From NCBI GenBank assembly GCA_017626495.1, contig JAGAIP010000005.1, positions 1 through 64,000 of the forward strand: 64,000 nt of DNA. The letters run 5' to 3'. The stretch comes from Clostridia bacterium (GTDB lineage: Bacteria; Bacillota; Clostridia; Christensenellales; Borkfalkiaceae). Under the pieces are notes generated by a model. It was not told where the DNA came from and ran no database searches. It saw only the letters and a list, made by a program, of their open reading frames with translations. Position 1 is the stretch's first letter; the number at the start of each line of letters is the position of its first letter. Positions 30,188-49,523 of the stretch are shown piece by piece. The position numbers were made by a program, and so were the translations under genes.

Positions 30188-30709
30188 ATGAAGAAAAAAC
30201 GCACCACAAAAAAGCTCGTAACGCTCGCCCTGTTTGTAGCCATGAGTCTCATTATGTTCCTCATCGAATCGCAATTCCCTCCCCTGTTCGTGCCGGGCGC
30301 GAAAATGGGACTTTCCAACCTGTTTTCCCTCCTCGCGCTTCTCTGGTACGGACCCGTCGAGGCTTTCGCCGTCATCGTGGCAAGAACGCTCCTCGGGGCG
30401 CTTTTTTCCAATCCGTTCGCCCTCGTCTATTCCTTTACGGCAGGCATTGCGACCATTCTTCTTTCCGCGTTTCTCTATCGGTTCGTCTTTCCCCGTATAT
30501 CCGTTCTCGCGATTTCCGTTGCGGGCGGAGTGTTTCACAATCTCGTACAGCTCGTCGTCTATATTCTCTTTTCCGAGACGGCTCTGCTCGTCTTTTACGC
30601 CCCCTATCTCGCCCTTGCAGGCGTCCTTTCAGGCACGATTGTAGGACTTACCCTACTTCTGATTATCAAGAAAATCCCTCTTTCGGTGTATCGAAGGATT
30701 TTAGAATAA
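30188..30709 (+). CDS. Gx-family membrane protein (EetB-like), first gene of rnf operon
   Basis: A 173-residue membrane protein with about five helices, of the Hpre_diP_synt_I / Gx transporter family. Recognised from FVPGAKMGLSNLFSLLALLWYGPVEA and the VARTLLGALFSNPFALVYSFTAG region. Members commonly accompany rnf genes, NusG-II proteins and ApbE in Bacillota; from memory, EetB of the Listeria extracellular electron transfer locus belongs to this family. The molecular role is unsettled (possible quinone or flavin-related transport). I start at 30188, where AAGGAA lies six bases upstream. It precedes rnfC by 28 bases. Confidence 0.85.
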   Translation: MKKKRTTKKLVTLALFVAMSLIMFLIESQFPPLFVPGAKMGLSNLFSLLALLWYGPVEAFAVIVARTLLGALFSNPFALVYSFTAGIATILLSAFLYRFVFPRISVLAISVAGGVFHNLVQLVVYILFSETALLVFYAPYLALAGVLSGTIVGLTLLLIIKKIPLSVYRRILE

Positions 30710-30737: not shown

Positions 30738-32003
30738 GTGAAAGCGATCAAAGCAAAATACGCCTTTCACGGCGTGCACGTTCCCGACAAAAAGGCTCTT
30801 GCCAGTGGCAAGCCCATCGAGAACGCACCCGAACAGGACGTACTGAACATTTCTCTTTCGCAATGCCTTGGCAAGCCCTCCACCCCCTGTGTAGCAGTCG
30901 GCGACAGAGTAAAACAAGGACAGATCATCGCCGAAGCAGGCGGATTCATCGGAGCAAAGATCCATGCACCCGTCAGCGGTACGGTAAAGAGCGTGACGGG
31001 ATCCATCATTCTCGAAAACGATAAGTTATACGAAACGGATTACCTTCCCCCTCTCGAAAACCCCACCCCGGACGAGATCAAACAGCGCGTCGGCGCGGCA
31101 GGCATCGTCGGTATGGGCGGCGCCGGATTCCCCACCTTCGTCAAGCTTAACCCTCAGGACAAGGTCGATACCCTCGTTCTGAACGGCGCGGAATGCGAGC
31201 CTTACCTTACCTGCGATCACCGTATCATGATTGAAAAGACGAACGAGATCGCCGAGGGAATCGCCCTTCTCAAAAAGGCGCTGGGCGTGGAGAACGTATT
31301 TATCGGCATCGAGGCGAATAAACCCGACGCCATCGAGGCGTTCGAGGCATTCGACTTCATTCAACCCGTCGTTCTCAAAAAGCAGTACCCCGTCGGAAGC
31401 GAAAAGCACCTCATCTATGCATGCACGGGCAGAAAAGTCGCTCCCGGGAAACTTCCCGCGTCCGCAGGCTGCATCGTACAGAACGTCGCTACCTGTCTCG
31501 CGATTTACGAGGCGGTCAAGTTCGGAAAACCCCTCATCGAGAGAGTGTTGACCGTTTCGGGCGGAGCCGTAAAAGAAGCGAAGAACTACCTCGTCAAAAT
31601 CGGTACTCCCCTGTCCGCGCTCCTGCAAGACAACCTCACAGAGGACGCGGAGAAAATCGTCTGCGGCGGCCCCATGACGGGCGTCGCGCTCAAAGACCTC
31701 GACAAAACCGTAACCAAGACCACGGGCGGACTGGTTGCCATGACCGTAAAGGAAACCAACGTCGAACAGCCCACCGCTTGCCTTTCCTGCGGTAAATGCG
31801 CGGACGTTTGCCCCATGAATCTCATGCCCATGAACACCGAGTTCTACACGGATGCAGGCGATTACGAAATGGCGGCGAAGAAAGGCGGCGTGATGAACTG
31901 CATCGAATGCGGCGCCTGCGCTTACGTCTGCCCTGCGCGTCGTCCCCTCGTACAGAGCATCAGAAAGGCAAAAGCAGAGATCAGAAAAGGAGGTAACAAA
32001 TGA
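30738..32003 (+). CDS. rnfC: Rnf complex subunit C (NAD and ferredoxin side)
   Basis: A 421-residue peripheral subunit that binds FMN and NAD(H) and passes electrons through two [4Fe-4S] clusters. The N-terminus has GVHVPDKKALASGKPIE and the biotinyl/lipoyl-like HAPVSGTVKSV. The Rossmann-like part shows GMGGAGFPTFVKL and LNGAECEPYLTCDHR. Cluster motifs are CLSCGKCADVCP and CIECGACAYVCP near the C-terminus. The start is GTG at 30738 with AAAGGAGT upstream. It overlaps rnfD by four bases. Confidence 0.96.
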   Translation: MKAIKAKYAFHGVHVPDKKALASGKPIENAPEQDVLNISLSQCLGKPSTPCVAVGDRVKQGQIIAEAGGFIGAKIHAPVSGTVKSVTGSIILENDKLYETDYLPPLENPTPDEIKQRVGAAGIVGMGGAGFPTFVKLNPQDKVDTLVLNGAECEPYLTCDHRIMIEKTNEIAEGIALLKKALGVENVFIGIEANKPDAIEAFEAFDFIQPVVLKKQYPVGSEKHLIYACTGRKVAPGKLPASAGCIVQNVATCLAIYEAVKFGKPLIERVLTVSGGAVKEAKNYLVKIGTPLSALLQDNLTEDAEKIVCGGPMTGVALKDLDKTVTKTTGGLVAMTVKETNVEQPTACLSCGKCADVCPMNLMPMNTEFYTDAGDYEMAAKKGGVMNCIECGACAYVCPARRPLVQSIRKAKAEIRKGGNK

Positions 32004-33028
32004 AACAGTTAGTCGTCTCCACGCCCCCGCACCTGAAAACGAGCCGTACGACCAAGCACATCATGATCGACGTGTGCGTCGCGCTCCTTCCTGCGGCAAT
32101 CATGGGCGTCGTCCTTTTCGGACTCAACGCTCTCTACGTCGTTCTACTCTCTGTTGCAAGCGCCGTTTTGGCGGAATATATCTACGCACTCATCGCAAAT
32201 AAAGTATGGAAGAACGTTTCCTACTTCGGTTCGTTCTGGAAACAGTTCGATTTCACATCCGTGGTGACGGGACTTCTCCTCGCCATGGTCATTCCCGCGT
32301 CCGTTCCCCTTTACTACCCCGTACTCGGAAGCATCTTCGCGATCGTAGTCGTCAAAATGCTCTTTGGCGGAACGGGTAAAAACGTCGTCAACCCCGCAAT
32401 CGCAGGAAGAATTTTCCTCTTCATTTCCTTCGCGGCAATGACAGCGTATCCCATCGCAAAGGATTTCGGACTCATCAGCGTCATTCCCCCCGTTGAAAAC
32501 GACGTCACGACGGGCGCAACCCCCCTCACGGGAATTCTTGCAGGCTCTACCGTAAAATTCACGCAGGGCATGCTCCTCAACTGGCTCTTCGGATTCGGCA
32601 TGGGCGGATGTATCGGCGAGGTCTGCAAAATCGGACTTTTGCTCGGATACGTTTACCTCGTCGTCAGAAAGGTCATCAAATTCTGGCAGCCTCTTCTCTA
32701 TATCGCTGTTTGCGGACTGATGACCGTCGCGCTTAACGGCTTTGACTTTACTTATTTCCTTCCCTCCATTCTTACGGGCGGACTTCTTCTCGGCGCGATC
32801 TTTATGGCGACCGATTACGTAACCTCCCCCAAATCCGACCTCGGCAACGTGATTTACTACGTCGCGCTCGGACTCATCACCGCAGGACTTCGTCAGGCAA
32901 CGGGCATTGAAGTCGTATCGTTCGCAATCATGCTCATGAACCTCGTCGTTCCTCTCATCGACCGTTTTGTTCCCTGCGTTCCTTTCGGAACAAAGAGAGA
33001 AAAGAAAGCAAAGGAGGCAAAAGCATGA
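32000..33028 (+). CDS. rnfD: Rnf complex subunit D, flavinylated membrane subunit
   Basis: A 342-residue integral membrane protein related to NqrB, with about nine to ten helices. It carries a covalent FMN attached by ApbE to the threonine of the (S/T)GAT motif; here this is Thr171-Gly172-Ala173-Thr174, followed by Pro-Leu (VTTGATPLTG). Other marks are KNVVNPAIAGR and the FMATDYVTSPKS segment. AAAAGGAGG precedes the ATG. It hands electrons toward RnfG on the outer side and takes part in ion pumping. Confidence 0.95.
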   Translation: MKQLVVSTPPHLKTSRTTKHIMIDVCVALLPAAIMGVVLFGLNALYVVLLSVASAVLAEYIYALIANKVWKNVSYFGSFWKQFDFTSVVTGLLLAMVIPASVPLYYPVLGSIFAIVVVKMLFGGTGKNVVNPAIAGRIFLFISFAAMTAYPIAKDFGLISVIPPVENDVTTGATPLTGILAGSTVKFTQGMLLNWLFGFGMGGCIGEVCKIGLLLGYVYLVVRKVIKFWQPLLYIAVCGLMTVALNGFDFTYFLPSILTGGLLLGAIFMATDYVTSPKSDLGNVIYYVALGLITAGLRQATGIEVVSFAIMLMNLVVPLIDRFVPCVPFGTKREKKAKEAKA

Positions 33029-34446
33029 CCGTAAAACAATTTTTCAAGAGCGCGGCTTTCAAAGCGCTTGCCGTCCTTCTCTCCATCACCGTCGTGTGCG
33101 GAGGCGTTCTCGCCGTTGCAAACGACCTCTTCTACGTTTCGGAAGAGGAAGTCAATCTGCGTTCCTATTCCAAACTGCTCGACAACGATAAAGTCGTAGA
33201 CGACAAGCTCCTCACCGAACCCTATGCGTCCGGCGACGGCGTCGTCAACAAAGTCGCTCTGACCGAAAAGGGAGATTACCTCGTCCAGGCGACCGGCGAC
33301 GGCGGCTACAAAGGCTCCGTTACCGTATGGGTTCTCTTCGGATTCGAGAACGGAAAGTTCAAAGGCATCAAAAAGGTACAGTATGCGTCCGACGAAGGCG
33401 AAACGCTGATGGCGAACCTCACGTCCGCATACTATCAGAATTTCGCAAACCATAACGAGGAAGTCCTCGCAGGCGGCATCTTCTCCGTAGACAGCAGCGA
33501 AGGCATCTGCAACGTGGTTACGGGAACGACCAAATCCTCTACCGCGATTGCAAACGCAGTCAACTCCGCACTCGGCTACGTGCGCGCCGTCATTCTCGGA
33601 CAGGGCGACAATCCTACCCCCGAACAACCCAAGCTCTACGAAAAGAACGTCAAAGACGTTAACGTCAAGATCAGCGGCAACACCGTAACCTATACGCTGA
33701 CCGTAAAGGCGCTCGGCGATCCCGACAACTTCGACTTCAAGATTGCCGTTACCGACGGAAAGATCGACTCCTTCGAGATCACCAAGAACGGCACGACCGA
33801 TTCTTACCTCGGCGCGTTCGGCAAAGTTGACTTCTCCACCTATATGGTAGGCAAGACGTACGCAGAACTTTCCGCGCTCATCGGCAAAGACGGTACGGAA
33901 CAAATCAAGACAAGCTACGTTGAAAGCGGCTCCTTCAACACGCTCACGACGGGCGCTTCCTACTCCTGCATCATGACGCTCATCGCAGGCGCATACGCAA
34001 CGGGCAACTACGAGGCATACCTCGCAGAAGGCTCCGCTCCCGCGCACCCCGTCTATTATGCGGAGAACGTCAAAAGCGCAACGCAGGAAGTTGACGGCAA
34101 TACCGTAACCTATACGCTGACCGTAAAGGCGCTCGGCGATCCCGATAACTTCGACTTCAAGATTGCAGTTACCGACGGAAAGATCGACTCCTTCGAAATC
34201 ACTAAGAACGGCACGACCGATTCTTACCTCGACGCGTTCGGCAAAGTTGACTTCTCCACCTATATGGTAGGCAAGACTTACGCAGAACTTTCCGCGCTCA
34301 TCGGCATGGACGGAACGGAAAAAATCAAGACAAGTTACGTTGAAAGCGGCTCCTTCAATACGCTCACGACGGGCGCTTCCTACTCCTGCATCATGACGCT
34401 CATCGCAGGCGCTTATGCGACGGGCAACTATGACTTGTATGTGTGA
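33025..34446 (+). CDS. rnfG: Extended RnfG with three FMN-binding domains
   Basis: A 473-residue RnfG, more than twice the usual length of about 180-210. Residues 1-32 are the membrane anchor. Residues about 33-190 are the ordinary RnfG FMN domain, with the attachment motif Thr166-Gly-Thr-Thr169-Lys-Ser171 (a variant of SGATxS). A Pro-rich linker (GDNPTPEQP) leads to two further copies of an FMN-binding-like domain, residues about 205-340 and 345-473. These two are almost identical (3-4 differences over 113 residues) and each ends in LTTGASYSC, giving candidate flavin sites at Ser312 and Ser452. The family normally has one FMN on the outer face. The extra domains should extend the outer electron path. 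No frameshift is present. Confidence 0.92.
   Translation: MTVKQFFKSAAFKALAVLLSITVVCGGVLAVANDLFYVSEEEVNLRSYSKLLDNDKVVDDKLLTEPYASGDGVVNKVALTEKGDYLVQATGDGGYKGSVTVWVLFGFENGKFKGIKKVQYASDEGETLMANLTSAYYQNFANHNEEVLAGGIFSVDSSEGICNVVTGTTKSSTAIANAVNSALGYVRAVILGQGDNPTPEQPKLYEKNVKDVNVKISGNTVTYTLTVKALGDPDNFDFKIAVTDGKIDSFEITKNGTTDSYLGAFGKVDFSTYMVGKTYAELSALIGKDGTEQIKTSYVESGSFNTLTTGASYSCIMTLIAGAYATGNYEAYLAEGSAPAHPVYYAENVKSATQEVDGNTVTYTLTVKALGDPDNFDFKIAVTDGKIDSFEITKNGTTDSYLDAFGKVDFSTYMVGKTYAELSALIGMDGTEKIKTSYVESGSFNTLTTGASYSCIMTLIAGAYATGNYDLYV
33676..34434 (+). repeat. Tandem duplication inside rnfG
   Basis: Two 339-base units at 33676-34014 and 34096-34434, offset by 420 bases, are nearly identical in DNA as well as protein; most differences are silent. 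This points to a recent duplication or to gene conversion. Confidence 0.9.
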
Positions 34447-34454
34447 GGTGACAT

Positions 34455-35108
34455 ATGAATAAATACGCTAAAATCTCAATCAACGGTTTAGTTTGGAATA
34501 ACCCCACCTTCAAGCTCATGCTCGGTATGTGCGCCACGCTCGCACTCACCACGACCGCCGTCAACGGCATCGGCATGGGACTTACGGTAACGGTCATTCT
34601 CCTTCTCTCGAACGTACTCATCTCCCTTCTCAGAAAGGCGATTCCCTCGTCCGTTCGTATCCCCGCTTACGTCGTCATCATCGCGACGCTCGTCACGATC
34701 GTCAGAATGGTACTGTTCAAGTATCTCCCCGACCTGTACGACGCAATGGGCGTGTTCCTTCCCCTCATCGTCGTCAACTGCATCATCCTGGGCAGAGCCG
34801 AGGCGTTCGCGTCGAAGAATCCCGTCCTCGATTCCGCAGTGGACGGACTTGCGACGGGGCTCGGGTTTACCCTTGCGCTTACCACGATGGGAATCATTCG
34901 CGAACTTCTCGGAAAAGGCTCCCTCTTCGGGATTCAAATCATGAATTTCTCGATCGGTTTCTTCTCCTCTTCCGCAGGCGCGTTCTTCGTGTACGGCATT
35001 TGCATCATGCTCTTCACGCAGATCTCTGAATCCATTCAGCTTTCCCGTAAGGAAAAACAGGGCAGAGAGCTTCGCAAGAATCTACTCAATCAGGAGGTAC
35101 AGGCATGA
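34455..35108 (+). CDS. rnfE: Rnf complex subunit E
   Basis: A 217-residue integral membrane subunit with six helices, homologous to NqrD and to RnfA. Family features are NGLVWNNPTFKLMLGMCATLA at the start and FLPLIVVNCIILGRAEAFASK in the middle. RnfA and RnfE form an inverted pair around a membrane iron-sulfur cluster; one cysteine of that cluster is in LGMCATLA and another in VVNCIILG. GAGGTG precedes the ATG. The stop overlaps the rnfA start. Confidence 0.95.
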   Translation: MNKYAKISINGLVWNNPTFKLMLGMCATLALTTTAVNGIGMGLTVTVILLLSNVLISLLRKAIPSSVRIPAYVVIIATLVTIVRMVLFKYLPDLYDAMGVFLPLIVVNCIILGRAEAFASKNPVLDSAVDGLATGLGFTLALTTMGIIRELLGKGSLFGIQIMNFSIGFFSSSAGAFFVYGICIMLFTQISESIQLSRKEKQGRELRKNLLNQEVQA

Positions 35109-35716
35109 ACTTCTTCACTTTATTAGTCGCCGTACTCGTTTCCGCCGTATTTGTAAATAACTTCATTCTGGTACAATTCCTCGGAATTTGCCCCTTCCTC
35201 GGCGTTTCCAAAAAGACGAGTTCCGCGTTCGGCATGGGCATGGCGGTTACCGTCGTCATGGTACTCGCTACCCTCGTAACCTATCCTCTGTATCAGTTCG
35301 TTTTGGTTCCCCTCAACATCGCGTATCTCGAAATCATCTTCTTTATCTTCGTCATCGCCGCCCTCGTACAGATGCTCGAAAAGATCTTGCAGAAGTTCAT
35401 TCCCTCGCTGTACAGCACGATGGGAATCTACCTTCCCCTCATTACGACCAACTGTGCGATCCTCGGCGTTGCCGAACTCGTCATCGACGAAGCGCAGATG
35501 CTCAAAGCGCTCGGCATCGCGTCCATGAACCTCGGCGTCGCACTTTTGTATGCGGTGTTTGCAGGTCTCGGATTCACCCTTGCCATCGTGATTATGAGCG
35601 GACTTCGCGAGAAGATGGATAAACTCAGACTTCCCAAAGCGATTGCAGGCGCGCCCATCACGATGATTGCCGCTTGCTTTATGGCTATGGCATTCTACGT
35701 ATTCACGTTGATTTAA
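35105..35716 (+). CDS. rnfA: Rnf complex subunit A
   Basis: A 203-residue six-helix membrane subunit, homologous to NqrE. Motifs are NNFILVQFLGICPFLGVSKK and YLPLITTNCAILGVAE, which supply the cysteines of the iron-sulfur cluster shared with RnfE. AGGAGG precedes the ATG, and the gene starts four bases before the rnfE stop. Length is normal and no substitutions in the motifs are seen. Confidence 0.96.
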   Translation: MNFFTLLVAVLVSAVFVNNFILVQFLGICPFLGVSKKTSSAFGMGMAVTVVMVLATLVTYPLYQFVLVPLNIAYLEIIFFIFVIAALVQMLEKILQKFIPSLYSTMGIYLPLITTNCAILGVAELVIDEAQMLKALGIASMNLGVALLYAVFAGLGFTLAIVIMSGLREKMDKLRLPKAIAGAPITMIAACFMAMAFYVFTLI

Positions 35717-35726
35717 GGAGGAAAGC

Positions 35727-36533
35727 ATGAATTTACTCGTTTCCATTCAATGGGGTCAGGTCGGAATCGTCGTCGGCATCTTTGCGGCGATTGCGATTGC
35801 CTTGACCGCTCTCATTCTTCTCATCGTTAAACTCTGCAAAGTCGAGACGGACGAAAGAGCCGAGGCAGTCCTCGAAAAACTCGCAGGCGCAAACTGCGGA
35901 GGATGCGGCTGTTCGGGTTGCTCCGACTTCGCGAAAAAACTCTGCCACGGAGAGGCGAAACTTTCCTCCTGCCATGTAACCGATTCGGCGAATAAAGCAG
36001 AAATCGCATCCCTTCTCGGCATCGAGGTCGGACACACCGAACCTACCGTCATGATCGTCGCGTGCAGCGGCGGAGACAACGCAAAGAATTCCTGTACATA
36101 CGTCGGAAATCCTTCCTGTGACGCAATCGTTTCCGTAGGCGGAAACAAAGTCTGTTCCTTCGGTTGCGAAGGCGGCGGAACCTGCGCGGCGGTTTGCCCT
36201 CAGAAGGCGATCACCATCGAGGAAGGTCGTTCGCATATCAACACCGACAGATGTATCTCCTGCGGCACCTGCGCGCTGAATTGTCCCAAGGCAATTTTAA
36301 GACGCATTCCCGTCTCTGCGCCCGTATACGTCGCCTGCTCCTCCAACTGCAAGGGTAAGGACGTCATGAACGCCTGCACGAAGGGTTGCATCGGTTGCGG
36401 ACTTTGCGCAAAGAACTGTCCTAGCGGCGCGATCACGATGGTCAACAATCTTCCCGTCATCGACTACAAGAAGTGTACGGGATGCCTGACCTGCGTCGGA
36501 AAATGCCCCAGAAAGGTCATCGTTCAACGCTGA
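35727..36533 (+). CDS. rnfB: Rnf complex subunit B, iron-sulfur electron entry subunit
   Basis: A 268-residue subunit with an N-terminal helix (about 10-35) and a soluble cytosolic part with several [4Fe-4S] clusters. The first cluster motif is ANCGGCGCSGCSDFAKKL; later cysteine sets are SCDAIVSVGGNKVCSFGCEG, CISCGTCALNCP, CIGCGLCAKNCP and CTGCLTCVGKCP. It receives electrons from reduced ferredoxin. It is the last gene of the operon, ten bases after rnfA, with AAGGAGG upstream and a terminator downstream. Confidence 0.96.
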   Translation: MNLLVSIQWGQVGIVVGIFAAIAIALTALILLIVKLCKVETDERAEAVLEKLAGANCGGCGCSGCSDFAKKLCHGEAKLSSCHVTDSANKAEIASLLGIEVGHTEPTVMIVACSGGDNAKNSCTYVGNPSCDAIVSVGGNKVCSFGCEGGGTCAAVCPQKAITIEEGRSHINTDRCISCGTCALNCPKAILRRIPVSAPVYVACSSNCKGKDVMNACTKGCIGCGLCAKNCPSGAITMVNNLPVIDYKKCTGCLTCVGKCPRKVIVQR

Positions 36534-37224: not shown

Positions 37225-37677
37225 TTACCCTACGGACGGATCAAAATTAAGCTCTCCCGCGCATATAATCAGGCGGTGAGGCATGCACTCGATAAACCCT
37301 CCCTGATCGGTGATCGGCGCCATATAGACGCAATCGCGGTGCATGGAGCAGTTCGCCTCCAACATCTTGACGTAACCTTCCTTCTTCACGATCAATACGT
37401 TCCGCGCATCGCCTTCGGTAATCGTGACGAGATACCCCTCTTCCGTCTGTTCGACCGTTACTCCTTCCGACGCTTTGACGGTATCGTGTAGGAAATCATA
37501 GGTAAAAATCACTTGGTTATCGCGCAAAATCTGAATCTGTTCGAGATCGGACTTGTTTCGGCTCAACCCCGTCGCTAGAAACGTCGCTACGATCAGTGCG
37601 ACGAGCGCAATATATACGATGACGTCTCCTTTCTTGAAGAACGGAGACTTTTTCGCCTGTTCTAACCGATCATTCAT
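37225..37677 (-). CDS. NusG-II-domain membrane protein (EetA-like)
   Basis: A 150-residue protein with one N-terminal helix (about 20-40) and an outward NusG domain II. Signature residues are ANCSMHRDCVYMAPI, then GGFIECMPHRLIIC, which keeps the Cys...Cys pattern of the family. It is not the transcription factor NusG. Such proteins are found beside FMN-binding proteins, ApbE and Gx-family proteins; from memory, Listeria EetA is of this type. It overlaps the apbE stop by eight bases. Its precise function is unknown, perhaps assembly or electron transfer. Confidence 0.85.
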   Translation of the reverse strand: MNDRLEQAKKSPFFKKGDVIVYIALVALIVATFLATGLSRNKSDLEQIQILRDNQVIFTYDFLHDTVKASEGVTVEQTEEGYLVTITEGDARNVLIVKKEGYVKMLEANCSMHRDCVYMAPITDQGGFIECMPHRLIICAGELNFDPSVG

Positions 37678-38833
37678 ATTTGATTACCTTTATTGCCTGA
37701 TCGAGCAGGGTATAAGAATCGAGATTCGTATGAATTTCCAAAGCCGTCCCCTCTTTCACGATGACGTATTGCACGTCGGGATAGGTCGTCTGCATGAACG
37801 AAACCGCCTGCTGCGTTCCCATAACGAGGAGAGCCGTGGTGAGCGCATCGGCATAGGACGCAGGCAAGCCGATTACGGTCGCCGTACAAACGCCCGTCTG
37901 AATGGGGCGCGCCGTAAACGGATCGATGATATGGCAATATCTCGTGTCGTCCACGTAATAATAGTTTTCGTAATCTCCGCTGGAAGAGACGGATACGTCC
38001 TTTACGGGAGACTGAATATAGTTCATGCCGGGAATCACAGGGCGCGGATGCGTAAATCCGAGATTCCAACAATAACCGTCCTCCTCTTTGAGCGACTTCA
38101 AGAGGGAGATGGATGACGAGCCGAGACTGACGTATCCGCTGTCATACCCCTTTCCCTTGACGTATTCCGCGCCGAGATCGGCCACATAGCCCTTGCCGAT
38201 ACCGCCGAGATCGAGCATCATGGTGTAAGTGATCCCCTCGATCGTCACTTCGCTGCTTGGCTTCACCATATAATAGGAGTCTCCCTCTTCTCCGAACTCA
38301 ACGTCTTGGAAGTTCGTTAAAGCGGAAAACGACTCGATATAGTCTTCGGAGGGAAGCGCCAACGCACCGTCCGCCATTTCTCTGTCATAGGGCTTTTCCG
38401 GCTGATAATCCACGTCGCGGAATCTCGGCGAGAATCCCCAAAGATCGACCAGATGCCCGACGGAAGGATTATACGCTCCGCCCGTAAGCTCGTACATCTC
38501 CATTGCAATCGAAAGCACTTCATACGTCGTCTGATCGATGACGATTCTCTCCCCCGGGCTTGCCGAATTGAACCTTGCAATACAGGAAGTTTCGATTTCC
38601 ACGCTGAGGCTCTTTTCGACCTCTTTCAAAAGGGACGCAACCTCGTTAATCGTCTCACCCGCACGCGCCATGCCCGCATCGGTCGCCTCGTCTCCGAGAC
38701 AGACGACCGCCTCGGTGCCGAAAATGTTATAAAGGTACTGCCCGTATATCTTCTCTTCCGTTTTTCCGTTTTGCGAACAGCCTGCAAGCGCAAACACGCC
38801 TGCAAGCGTTACCGTTAACCATTTTTTATTCAT
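37670..38833 (-). CDS. apbE: ApbE, FAD:protein FMN transferase (lipoprotein)
   Basis: A 387-residue secreted flavin transferase that moves FMN from FAD onto Thr/Ser of (S/T)GA(S/T) motifs. The signal peptide ends in the lipobox LAGC (Cys19), so it is a membrane-anchored lipoprotein on the outer face, where RnfG and the FMN lipoprotein are exposed. Family motifs are MLDLGGIGKGYVADLG, SSSGDYENYYYVDD, CHIIDPFTARPI and ASYADALTTALLVMG. The -10 TATAAT ends six bases before the ATG and there is no ribosome site, so the mRNA should be leaderless. It heads an operon with the NusG-II gene and the 192-residue membrane protein. Confidence 0.95.
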   Translation of the reverse strand: MNKKWLTVTLAGVFALAGCSQNGKTEEKIYGQYLYNIFGTEAVVCLGDEATDAGMARAGETINEVASLLKEVEKSLSVEIETSCIARFNSASPGERIVIDQTTYEVLSIAMEMYELTGGAYNPSVGHLVDLWGFSPRFRDVDYQPEKPYDREMADGALALPSEDYIESFSALTNFQDVEFGEEGDSYYMVKPSSEVTIEGITYTMMLDLGGIGKGYVADLGAEYVKGKGYDSGYVSLGSSSISLLKSLKEEDGYCWNLGFTHPRPVIPGMNYIQSPVKDVSVSSSGDYENYYYVDDTRYCHIIDPFTARPIQTGVCTATVIGLPASYADALTTALLVMGTQQAVSFMQTTYPDVQYVIVKEGTALEIHTNLDSYTLLDQAIKVIKYE

Positions 38834-38913: not shown

Positions 38914-40368
38914 TTAGAGCTTGGAAGCTGCGAGCTCGACGAGAGCAACGTAGGAAAGGGAATTTTCCTTCGTGGTTGCAAGGTCGGTCCAGGTAGCGCC
39001 GGTGGAAACGCCGTTTCCGTCAACCCATACTTTTCCGTCCTTATTGTCGGGATCGAGCGCCTTAGCTGCATCGAGGCCGTTTGCAAGGATATACTCTACC
39101 GTTCTGCCGTAGTTGATTGCATAGCCGAGACCGGAAGATACGGCAGGTCTGTTCCAGTAACCGTTTCTAGTTTTCAGGAGAGCCTTCGCGTTGAGTACGG
39201 AAGTATCGTCAGCGCCGTTGATAACGACTGCAACGGAAGAAGTTGCAACAGCTTCGTAGTATTTCGCTGCGTTAGCCTCGGTCTGGAAGAACTCGACCAT
39301 CGTCTGGTTGCCTACAACGTAGGTGTTCTTTTCAAGGTCGTAGGTCATGGTGACGTCTGCGAACTTAACGGTCTTGTAGAAGATCTTCTCTACTTCGCTG
39401 CCGTGGCTGATTACGGTCGTGGTAACGGTGTCGTCCGTTGCTTCGGGAGCTACGACGTAGGTAGGAAGGCATGCTTCGTCCCATGCGATGTCTACGAGCG
39501 TTCCGTCAACTGCGGCAACGTTAACCTTTGCAACGTAACCTGCGGCGTGAACCATACCGTAGCCGGAAGCGTAGGTAGCGGTTACTGCATTGTTGGTTGC
39601 GCGCTCAACGAGCTCAACGTAGGAAAGGGAATTTTCCTTCGTGGTTGCAAGGTCGGTCCAGGTAGCGCCGGTGGAAACGCCGTTTCCGTCAACCCATACT
39701 TTTCCGTCCTTATTATCGGGATCGAGCGTCTTAGCTGCTGCAAGACCGTTTGCCTTGATGTAGCTGATGGTGTTTGCATAGTTCTGCCAGTAGCCGAGAC
39801 CGGAAGCACCGATGTTATCCCAGTATTCGTTTCTGGATTTCAGAAGCTTGCCGGGGGTCATGACGGTATAGTCGTCAGCGCCGTTTACGACAACTGCAAC
39901 TCTTCCTGCAAAGACTGCTTCGAAATACTTCTTAGCGTTAGCCTCGTTCTGGAAGAACTCAACCATCGTCTGCTCGCCTACGACGTAGGTGTTCTTTTCA
40001 AGGTCGTAGGTCATGGTGACGTCTGCGAACTTAACGGTCTTGTAGAAAATCTTCTCTACTTCGCTGCCGTGGCTGATTACGGTCGTGGTAACGGTGTCGT
40101 CCGTTGCTTCGGGAGCTACGATGTAGGTAGGAAGGCATGCTTCGTCCCATGCGATCTCGTCATACTTGCCATCGTTCATAGCTACGGTTGCCTTAGCAAC
40201 GTAACCTGCGCCGTGAACCATACCGTAACCGATACCGAACGTGGTCTTTACCGTGGGGGTAGGATCGGGGGTAGGATCGGGCGTGGGCTGATCGCCGCAT
40301 CCGACGAGTGCGCCTGCCATGACTCCTGCTGCAAGGAGAGCAAGGACAGCTTTAAGATTCTTCTTCAT
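38914..40368 (-). CDS. PplA-like lipoprotein with two FMN-binding domains
   Basis: A 484-residue surface lipoprotein. I start at 40368, where GGAGG lies nine bases upstream. The signal peptide ends in LVGC (Cys24), followed by a PTPDPTPDPTPT tether. Two domains of about 215 residues follow (about 44-258 and 266-484). Each begins with GYGMVHxAGYVAK, contains AWDEACLPTYxVAPEATDD, and ends with DGNGVSTGATWTD. The STGATWT cores match the ApbE flavinylation motif, with candidate FMN on Thr236 and Thr459. The layout resembles PplA, the two-flavin lipoprotein of Listeria extracellular electron transfer. Its own consensus promoter and the adjacent apbE support the role. Likely acts outside the membrane as an electron shuttle from Rnf. 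Confidence 0.88.
   Translation of the reverse strand: MKKNLKAVLALLAAGVMAGALVGCGDQPTPDPTPDPTPTVKTTFGIGYGMVHGAGYVAKATVAMNDGKYDEIAWDEACLPTYIVAPEATDDTVTTTVISHGSEVEKIFYKTVKFADVTMTYDLEKNTYVVGEQTMVEFFQNEANAKKYFEAVFAGRVAVVVNGADDYTVMTPGKLLKSRNEYWDNIGASGLGYWQNYANTISYIKANGLAAAKTLDPDNKDGKVWVDGNGVSTGATWTDLATTKENSLSYVELVERATNNAVTATYASGYGMVHAAGYVAKVNVAAVDGTLVDIAWDEACLPTYVVAPEATDDTVTTTVISHGSEVEKIFYKTVKFADVTMTYDLEKNTYVVGNQTMVEFFQTEANAAKYYEAVATSSVAVVINGADDTSVLNAKALLKTRNGYWNRPAVSSGLGYAINYGRTVEYILANGLDAAKALDPDNKDGKVWVDGNGVSTGATWTDLATTKENSLSYVALVELAASKL
38935..40239 (-). repeat. Two long tandem repeats in the FMN lipoprotein gene
   Basis: Units at about 39604-40239 and 38935-39573, offset by 669 bases. Blocks around the flavin motif and around TVKFADVTMTYDLEKNTYVV are almost identical at DNA level, while segments between them have diverged. 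This mosaic is what gene conversion would leave. Confidence 0.85.
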
Positions 40369-47079: not shown

Positions 47080-49113
47080 TCAATAATTCTTTGCGTTGAT
47101 TTCGAAATAAGCCTGAGGATGCGCACATACGGGGCAGGTATCGGGCGCTTTCGTTCCGACGACGATGTGTCCGCAGTTTCTGCACTCCCAGACCTTGACT
47201 TCGCTCTTTTGGAATACTTCCTGCGCCTCGACGTTGTGAAGAAGCGCACGGTATCTCTCTTCGTGATGCTTTTCGATTTCGCCGACCATACGGAATTTAG
47301 CGGCAAGCTCGGTGAATCCTTCCTCTTCGGCGGTCTTTGCAAAGCCCTCGTACATATCCGTCCACTCGTAGTTTTCACCCTCTGCGGCGTGAAGGAGATT
47401 TTCAGCGGTGTTGCCGATGCCCTTCAATTCTTTCAGCCACATTTTCGCGTGTTCTTTTTCGTTGTCTGCCGTTTTGAGGAAGAGCGCGGAAATCTGTTCG
47501 TAGCCTTCTTTCTTTGCGACGGACGCGAAATATGTATACTTATTTCTCGCCTGAGATTCGCCTGCGAAAGCGGCTTCCAGATTCTTTTCCGTCTGCGTTC
47601 CCGCATAGGGATTAGGTTTTACTTCGGGGAGCTTTTCAAACGCGCTCGCGGGCTGTTTGCAGACGGGGCACTTTTCAGGCGCCTGATCGCCTTCGTGAAC
47701 ATATCCGCATACTTTACATTTCCATTTTGCCATTGTTTTTTCTCCTTTCTGATTTATAATCGCACTCTTATTTTCATAAGAAGTGTGTAACATTTTTTCC
47801 GCAAGTTCGCTGAGCGGATGCGTATAAAACTCTCGATAAATGCGGATAATATCGGGGTTTTTGTGGCTCTGACGGCACTGCATCTCGCGGTCTTTCCGAT
47901 AAAGACTTTCAATGCGCGCTTTGCGCACTTCGTCGGAATCTTTTTCGATATTCTTCGGCTGACCGCCTCCGCCGATACAACCGCCGGGGCATGTCATTAC
48001 CTCTACAAAGTGGTATTGCTTCCCCTCCCGTTTCATCTTTTCGATGAATCTACGCGCGTTTTCCGTTCCGTAAATTACCGCAACCTGCAATACGGAATCC
48101 GCAATTTGCACAGTCGCTTCCCTGATTCCCTCATAACCGCGGACGGGTTTGTAATCCAGCAACGCGCTCGGAGCAGGCTCGCCCGTCGCATATTCGTATG
48201 CCGTACGGAGCGCCGCTTCCATTACGCCGCCGGTATTTCCAAAAATAACCCCTGCGCCGGAAGCCTCGCCCATCAGGGAATCGTATTCGCTGTCCTGCAA
48301 CGAAGAAAAGTCGATTTGTTCTTCTTTCGCCCACCTTGCCAGCTCCCTCGTCGTGATCACGTAATCCATGTCGCGAAGGTCTTCATGCAAGTAGTCCGCC
48401 GCGCCCTTCATTTCTTCACGGCGAATCTCCATTTTTTTCGCGGTGCAGGGCGTCAACGCCACGTTGACGATTTTTGTGGGATCCAAGCCCATCTTTTTGG
48501 CAAAAAAGGTCTTTATAGTCGGTCCCTGCATGCCGATGGGGCTCTTTGCCGTAGAAAGATTGGGAATCAATTCGGGATAATAGATCTCCACGAATTTTAC
48601 CCATGCAGGGCAACAGCTCGTAAACTGCGGAAGCGGTCCTCTCTGTTTTGTAATTCGTTCGATCAGTTCGCTCGCCTCTTCGACAATCGTAAGATCCGCA
48701 GCAAAGTTTGTATCCAAAACGTAATCTACGCCCAGTTTTCTCAGAAGCGCGACCATTTTCCCTTGAACGAAACTACCATCCGACATGCCGAACTCTTCCC
48801 CGAGCGCGACGCGCACGGAAGGGGAAGTGCTTACGACGACAATCTTATTCGGATTGCGAACCGCGTCCCTCACCTGTTCGTATTCATACCGTTCGGTAAT
48901 GCTGTTTACGGGACACACGTTTGCGCACTGACCGCAGTTGATACAGACCGCGTTTCCGTTCGTCTGTTCCAACGTATATGTACCGTGTACCCCGATTTTT
49001 TCGGTGCAGACGTCTTTACACATTCCGCACTTGATACATTTATTCTCGTCTCTCACAATGCTCGGATTATCCGGGTCGATTGGAACACGAATATCCATCG
49101 ATAGATGTTTCAT
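47080..49113 (-). CDS. [FeFe] hydrogenase fused in frame to rubrerythrin
   Basis: A 677-residue continuous frame. Residues about 1-75 carry two [4Fe-4S] motifs ([25 protein letters not shown]). Residues about 80-450 are a short [FeFe] hydrogenase with all three H-cluster motifs: [22 protein letters not shown] and [16 protein letters not shown]. After [17 protein letters not shown], where such hydrogenases normally stop, the frame runs on for about 20 residues into a complete rubrerythrin ([15 protein letters not shown]): N-terminal rubredoxin-like domain, four-helix di-iron domain ([32 protein letters not shown]) and C-terminal rubredoxin domain ([15 protein letters not shown]). An AAAGGAG site remains ahead of the rubrerythrin ATG (47733), so both a fusion and free rubrerythrin can be made. 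I start at 49113 because GGAGGAGAG precedes it and it overlaps the perR stop (ATGA). Likely role: peroxide removal with electrons from H2 or ferredoxin. Confidence 0.88.
47733..47749 (-). promoter_or_regulatory. Internal ribosome site and start of rubrerythrin
   Basis: On the - strand AAAGGAG lies eight bases before the ATG at 47733, inside the open fusion frame. It is as strong as other ribosome sites in the window, so 217-residue free rubrerythrin (47080-47733) is probably also translated. Confidence 0.75.
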
Positions 49114-49523
49114 TTGCTCTCCTCCTTTCCCTCTTTGCTCCCTTGTTTCTGACATTCAAGACAAATCCCTTGAAAAATAAGATCGTGCTTTATAAAAACA
49201 AAACCGTGCCCATCTTTAATTCTGCTTTGCATATCGGGAATATACTCCATATCCACGTCCGCAACCCTCCCACAGTTTATGCACCTGACGTGATAATGAT
49301 TCGCGCAAATATGGTCGTAACGGTCCGCACAACCCGGTATTTTGCGAATCGAAATGAACCCCGCCTCGTCGAGTTGTTGCAGATTGCGATAGACGGTCGT
49401 CCGACTGATCGAAGGGTGCTCTTTGACCACTTCGGCATACACCTCGTCTGCCGTCGGGTGATTTTGTAACCTCTTCACCGCCTGTAATATGATCGTTCTT
49501 TGAATGGTATTGCGCTGGTACAT
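49110..49523 (-). CDS. perR: PerR-type Fur-family peroxide regulator
   Basis: A 137-residue metal-dependent repressor. The winged helix is in [20 protein letters not shown]. The regulatory metal residues lie in [15 protein letters not shown], and the structural zinc is held by CINCGRV and CLECQKQ. With Fe bound, PerR is inactivated by peroxide through histidine oxidation; a Fur or Zur role cannot be fully excluded, but the operon (rubrerythrin) favours PerR. Its promoter overlaps an imperfect palindrome, fitting autoregulation. The stop overlaps the hydrogenase start. Confidence 0.9.

Follow-up and report, generated by a model that had tools for sequence, protein, structure and literature searches.

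An RnfG subunit with three FMN-type domains, predicted to be multi-flavinylated, in the rnf operon of a Clostridia bacterium

The rnf operon of this Clostridia bacterium encodes an RnfG protein of 473 residues that carries three FMN-type domains in the order A-B-B behind a single N-terminal membrane helix, and the cores of the second and third domains are nearly identical. On balance, we favour the interpretation that this RnfG is a multi-flavin protein that would be loaded by ApbE and would carry electrons outward in a side branch from Rnf, with the cores of its repeated domains homogenised. The window referred to below is the whole stretch of DNA that was analysed, 64,000 nucleotides at positions 1 to 64,000 of contig JAGAIP010000005.1 (assembly GCA_017626495.1). 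The source genome is metagenome-derived, with a size of 1.33 Mb, 25 contigs and an estimated completeness of 79%.

The rnf operon

The genes at the locus follow the order rnfC-D-G-E-A-B, and each neighbour of rnfG was assigned by its own family model (Table 1). The identity of the protein as RnfG follows from an unambiguous operon context, as its gene lies between rnfD and rnfE, and domain A fits solved RnfG structures. By score, the protein is not a member of the RnfG family TIGR01947, since its 27.9 bits fall under the curated cut-off of 102. The RnfD of the window contains TTGATPLTG, the usual RnfD flavinylation motif. The membrane protein encoded 5' of rnfC also matches ECF_trnsprt at 2.2e-6, under the cut-off of that model, and is possibly a transporter of flavin or of a precursor.

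Two further features are found outside this region. The window starts with a CRISPR-like array of repeats (104-534; ATTTCAATCCACGCACCCACACGGGGTGCGAC). An ORF on the reverse strand (47080-49155) appears on reading to join an [FeFe]-hydrogenase-like protein to a rubrerythrin that has rubredoxin ends; the junction resembles translated intergenic sequence, as from a lost stop codon or a sequencing error.

Table 1. Features of the rnf locus and the adjoining ApbE region (window coordinates)
Feature	Position	Strand	Basis
Hpre_diP_synt_I / ECF S-component-like membrane protein, 5' of rnfC	30188..30709	+	Pfam PF07456 E 1.1e-30
rnfC	30738..32003	+	TIGR01945 E 1.9e-138
rnfD	32000..33028	+	TIGR01946 E 5.3e-67; PF03116
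rnfG, three FMN-type domains (A-B-B)	33025..34446	+	ORF, profiles, model
RnfG N-terminal membrane helix, residues 10-36	33052..33132	+	model helix H10-36
Domain A, canonical RnfG FMN_bind, residues 74-187; TGTTKS at 33520-33537	33244..33585	+	Pfam FMN_bind 6e-7
Domain B1, residues 209-330; TGASYS at 33949-33966	33649..34014	+	B-profile match; model
Near-identical core tract, copy 1	33675..33974	+	96% DNA identity with 34095-34394
Domain B2, residues 349-470; TGASYS at 34369-34386	34069..34434	+	B-profile match; model
Near-identical core tract, copy 2	34095..34394	+	96% DNA identity with 33675-33974
rnfE	34455..35108	+	TIGR01948 E 5.1e-66
rnfA	35105..35716	+	TIGR01943 E 3.1e-63
rnfB	35727..36533	+	NF041836 E 1.4e-57
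NusG domain II-like membrane-anchored protein	37225..37677	-	PF07009 E 2.5e-12
ApbE, FAD:protein FMN transferase with lipobox	37670..38833	-	PF02424 E 3.5e-58
Lipoprotein, two near-identical ~218-residue C domains (C1 39586-40236, C2 38920-39570)	38914..40368	-	start chosen at MKKNLKAVL

Domain structure of RnfG

A sequence-only reading of this DNA had proposed that RnfG carries two extra, nearly identical FMN-domain repeats beyond its normal domain. The residue numbers that it gave (a length of 473 residues, TGTTKS at 166-171, and attachment sites at Thr169, Ser312 and Ser452) are borne out by the ORF, in which the TGASYS motifs of the repeats occupy residues 309-314 and 449-454. The near-identity of two units of about 113 residues is likewise confirmed: as delimited by HMM (residues 218-330 and 358-470, 113 residues), the B copies are 96.5% identical in protein, with 4 differences, and 94.7% identical in DNA, with 13 synonymous changes among the 109 identical codons. 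The direct repeat in the gene has a period of 420 bp (140 residues) and a tandem array score of 1400, and this score together with the presence of A-B-B in ten further genomes rules out chance. Identity between the copies drops sharply beyond about 33690-34000, a core of ~300 nt, and neither the linkers nor the opening ~15 residues of the repeats are alike.

Single-sequence structure prediction of RnfG was poor (pLDDT 44), and AlphaFold2 with an alignment of 54 sequences was used instead. The resulting model has a mean pLDDT of 90 and a pTM of 0.54, with the linkers and the relative placement of the domains uncertain. Residues 1-192 of the model, comprising the membrane helix and domain A, are similar to RnfG of Acetobacterium woodii (9eri_G) with a Z-score of 14.6 over 181 residues. 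B1 and B2 are each composed of four strands and short helices, the last of which starts at TGASYS. The repeat unit had been described as ending at TTGASYS; in the model it continues past that point with a helix of about 16 residues. In a structural search, the B domains also showed likeness to IscU/SufU and LplA at Z 5-6, in a result list dominated by domain A. The first Foldseek match in the PDB was 7zc6_G at E 0.002, with none at E <= 0.001, and phmmer of RnfG against the PDB returned nothing relevant.

Pfam FMN_bind (PF04205) matches the window RnfG at residues 94-183 only (30.4 bits against a cut-off of 22) and does not match B1 or B2. When isolated B domains from the typed RnfGs were searched, 7 of 60 matched PF04205, the best at 7e-5. 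In two relatives (L102 and L055) it is a B domain that holds the best FMN_bind match of the RnfG as a whole, and the RnfG of a third (L091) has three FMN_bind matches. Alignment of the A and B profiles by hhalign covers 24 columns, all around the motif. Searched against the PDB, a profile of the 60 B domains gave RnfG 7zc6 as its first match, at E 0.0065 and spanning the domain; the FMN_bind protein 3o6u was matched at E 0.034, and both matches are weak. The attachment position is Thr (77%) or Ser (23%) in every one of the 60 B domains, and all 60 also have Ala just before it and Ser or Thr two residues after it. Taken as a whole, the profile and motif comparisons support the prediction that B1 and B2 are divergent FMN_bind-type domains of a subtype of ~110 residues with an intact ApbE motif. 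The original description of the repeats as FMN-binding-type domains with an intact ApbE motif in an RnfG is supported, and an ApbE is encoded nearby. By motif, RnfG is predicted to be of the multi-flavinylated type, an extracytoplasmic protein with its three domains behind the membrane helix. A survey that counts Pfam FMN_bind matches would overlook most B domains of this kind.

Domain number among relatives

Relatives were identified by RnfD, RnfG was taken as the ORF after RnfD, and the A and B types were defined by iterated profiles. The 114 RnfGs typed in this way contain one domain (66 proteins), two (34), three (11), four (2) or five (1), which agrees with the earlier suggestion of a variable copy number, as far as related genomes are concerned. 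Their architectures are A (66), A-B (32), A-B-B (11, including the window), A-B-B-B (2), A-A (2) and A-A-A-A-A (1), and at least 19 changes of architecture are needed on the RnfD tree. In the window's genus, A-B-B is the form of all three species sampled, and the AB, ABB and ABBB forms are found side by side in related genera.

Several unusual forms were observed. The RnfG with five A-type domains (L063:1993-4536, genome G296) has 848 residues, and several of its domains are without the exact motif (e.g. ANATMS, TGVSLA). A 549-residue RnfG-like protein from another family of the order (L209, genome G637) combines A and B with a third, FMN_bind-like domain in an A-B-A-like arrangement. The rnfC gene of genome G074 (L073:1-2001) contains an in-frame insertion of ~115 residues, a B-like domain (E 9e-10 to 9e-12) in which the TGATxS motif is missing; RnfC of five related genomes is without the insertion. 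The presence of a B-like, outer-face domain within the cytosolic RnfC suggests recombination inside the operon.

Evolution of the B copies

In a tree of the 60 B domains, copies from the same protein are sisters in 11 of the 13 RnfGs with more than one B domain. The window copies share 41-49% residue identity with those of the other two congeneric species, compared with 96.5% to each other. A tree constrained to group the first copies of the genus is worse by 226 log units (p-AU 1.2e-8), and positional orthology is rejected. Near-identity is limited to the domain core, with differing linkers, in six of the seven species profiled (the window, L072, L065, L097, L102 and L165); for the seventh (L071) the alignment needs gaps and the pattern is less clear. 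Near-identical cores beside diverged linkers, together with two B copies in all three congeners, indicate older copies that have been homogenised. In view of the trees, the core-only identity and the AU test, the proposal of a simply recent second copy was set aside. Recombination between copies appears to keep the B cores near-identical within a species, presumably through gene conversion, and rnfG would then provide a bacterial case of redox domains within one gene evolving in concert.

The likeness of the copies could instead stem from independent recent duplications in each species. This alternative is a real possibility that we consider clearly the less likely one: it is favoured by the frequent change of architecture on the RnfD tree and by the coexistence of the three B-bearing forms in related genera, whereas ABB is present in every sampled species of the window's genus, and diverged linkers beside near-identical cores, seen in several lineages, are unlike the product of a fresh tandem duplication.

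ApbE and the C-domain lipoprotein

The ApbE gene is encoded on the strand opposite to rnf and is the single match genome-wide in the 79% complete assembly; ApbE is present in 78 of 80 relatives. It adjoins the lipoprotein gene, whose two C domains each end in STGATWTD and share, over long stretches, 92-94% DNA identity. The C domain does not match any Pfam or NCBIfam family, and phmmer of the lipoprotein against the PDB returned nothing relevant. In relatives, the C domain is preceded by N-terminal FMN_bind-like domains, with a Pfam match over the cut-off in one (L181) and a weak match in another (L180). The C domain is a candidate for a new flavinylation domain, given its sequence motif and its absence from both databases, and it may still prove to be identical with FMN-bind2.

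Co-occurrence with RnfG architecture was assessed in 80 of the 114 typed genomes. Of the 13 genomes with A-B-B or A-B-B-B, 7 have the C-domain lipoprotein, compared with 3 of the 35 with another multi-domain RnfG and none of the 32 with a single-domain RnfG (7/13 vs 3/67, Fisher p 5e-5, in a test that ignores shared ancestry). The lipoprotein gene lies no more than about 10 kb from rnf in four genomes (G000, G280, G052 and G060). Other relatives with an A-B RnfG encode lipoproteins of 650-1190 residues beside ApbE with FMN_bind-type motifs, and B domains are present in some of these, located near rnf, which indicates that one B module serves both RnfG and those lipoproteins. The window lipoprotein is a probable multi-flavin partner of RnfG. 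Three or four ApbE-type motifs were also observed in lipoproteins of 780-1190 residues at L225, L227, L228 and L229 (genomes G220, G184, G216 and G213), and those of G220, G184 and G216 are close to ApbE.

Proposed role

In the Rnf complex, electrons pass from ferredoxin to the RnfG flavin, then to the RnfD flavin and on to NAD. Domain A of the window protein would be the normal RnfG flavin domain on this path, and B1 and B2 would each hold one covalent FMN attached by the nearby ApbE. Flexible linkers would let B1 and B2 reach outward from the membrane. Electrons at the flavin of domain A could then move to these two domains and from there through the two-domain lipoprotein beside ApbE to an extracytoplasmic acceptor. 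Domain number would shift by duplication and loss, while recombination between the copies would keep their cores near-identical. No terminal electron acceptor for the branch was found, and Pfam identified no second FMN_bind protein in this genome. A flavinylated fumarate reductase was considered as the acceptor and had no support, as the FAD_binding_2 matches are short N-terminal nucleotide-binding stretches only.

The main rival to an outward branch is that the extra flavins are an electron store that buffers Rnf and has no onward partner. Near-identical domains within a protein are expected to have similar potentials, and SaFMN3, with three domains that are >80% identical, has one potential of -184 mV (PMC10339131); the C-domain lipoprotein is also missing in 6 of the 13 genomes whose RnfG has three or four domains of the A-B series. 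The link with C-domain lipoproteins and the occurrence of B domains in ApbE-adjacent lipoproteins suggest an onward chain instead, and we judge a pure store to be improbable. Slightly less probable again is that the B domains are FMN_bind-fold modules that hold no flavin and act as spacers or binding domains. The window copies are indeed unmatched by Pfam FMN_bind, and the motif-less domain in the RnfC of G074 indicates that the fold can outlast the motif; the attachment residue and its neighbours are nevertheless kept in all 60 RnfG B domains and were lost in the cytosolic copy. The fragmented state of the genome (25 contigs, 79% complete) speaks for an assembly artefact, which is nevertheless highly unlikely because 13 synonymous and 4 amino-acid differences separate the copies, their flanks are unlike, the same architecture occurs in ten other genomes, and short-read assembly would be more apt to collapse such repeats.

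If an outward branch from RnfG is correct, the ferredoxin-driven Rnf ion pump of gut anaerobes would be tied to an outward transfer of electrons that needs no cytochromes. The same protein occurs naturally with one to five flavin domains, and it could be tested in this series how the number of flavins affects electron transfer. A broader proposal is more speculative, namely that Rnf might drive a flavin-only extracellular electron transfer through interchangeable, recombining FMN domains, their number tuned by evolution, to a lipoprotein with a new C flavinylation family.

Comparison with known systems

Multi-flavinylated RnfG is already known as a predicted kind. Meheust et al. 2021 (PMC8238504) predict such proteins in RNF clusters and propose for them a second electron path, or branch, to extracytosolic acceptors. 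The window RnfG is like these in having more than one FMN-binding domain within an RNF cluster. Their survey counted PF04205 domains, whereas the two extra domains described here escape PF04205; neither concerted evolution nor a link with a C-domain lipoprotein is described in the passages of the paper that were consulted. As far as the literature was checked, the new elements are the B subtype that is mostly missed by Pfam, the series from one to five domains in one family, the concerted evolution seen among these domains and the link to the C-domain lipoprotein. The present proteins also differ from the multiheme RnfG reported in Christensenellales, which was not seen here: there is no CxxCH among the RnfGs listed.

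The solved RnfG proteins of Clostridium tetanomorphum and Acetobacterium woodii (7zc6 and 9eri) resemble domain A and the membrane helix. They have 187 and 207 residues and end after domain A, whereas the window RnfG continues with B1 and B2. SaFMN3 and CbFMN4 (Tong et al. 2023, PMC10339131) consist of separate FMN_bind domains that are >80% identical within each protein and are joined by flexible linkers, an arrangement like that of the near-identical domains in the window. Covalent FMN is proven for those two proteins. SaFMN3 and CbFMN4 are described as secreted, whereas the window domains extend a membrane-bound Rnf subunit and belong to a different subtype of ~110 residues.

The FMN-bind2 double-domain proteins (Huang et al. 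2024, PMC11334425) and PplA of Listeria have two domains with ApbE-type motifs, as does the window lipoprotein, in which the C domain of ~218 residues differs from both in being unmatched by Pfam and NCBIfam. Extracellular electron transfer of the PplA type involves a surface lipoprotein with FMN domains beside ApbE, to which the window lipoprotein, with two C domains outside the known families, may correspond.
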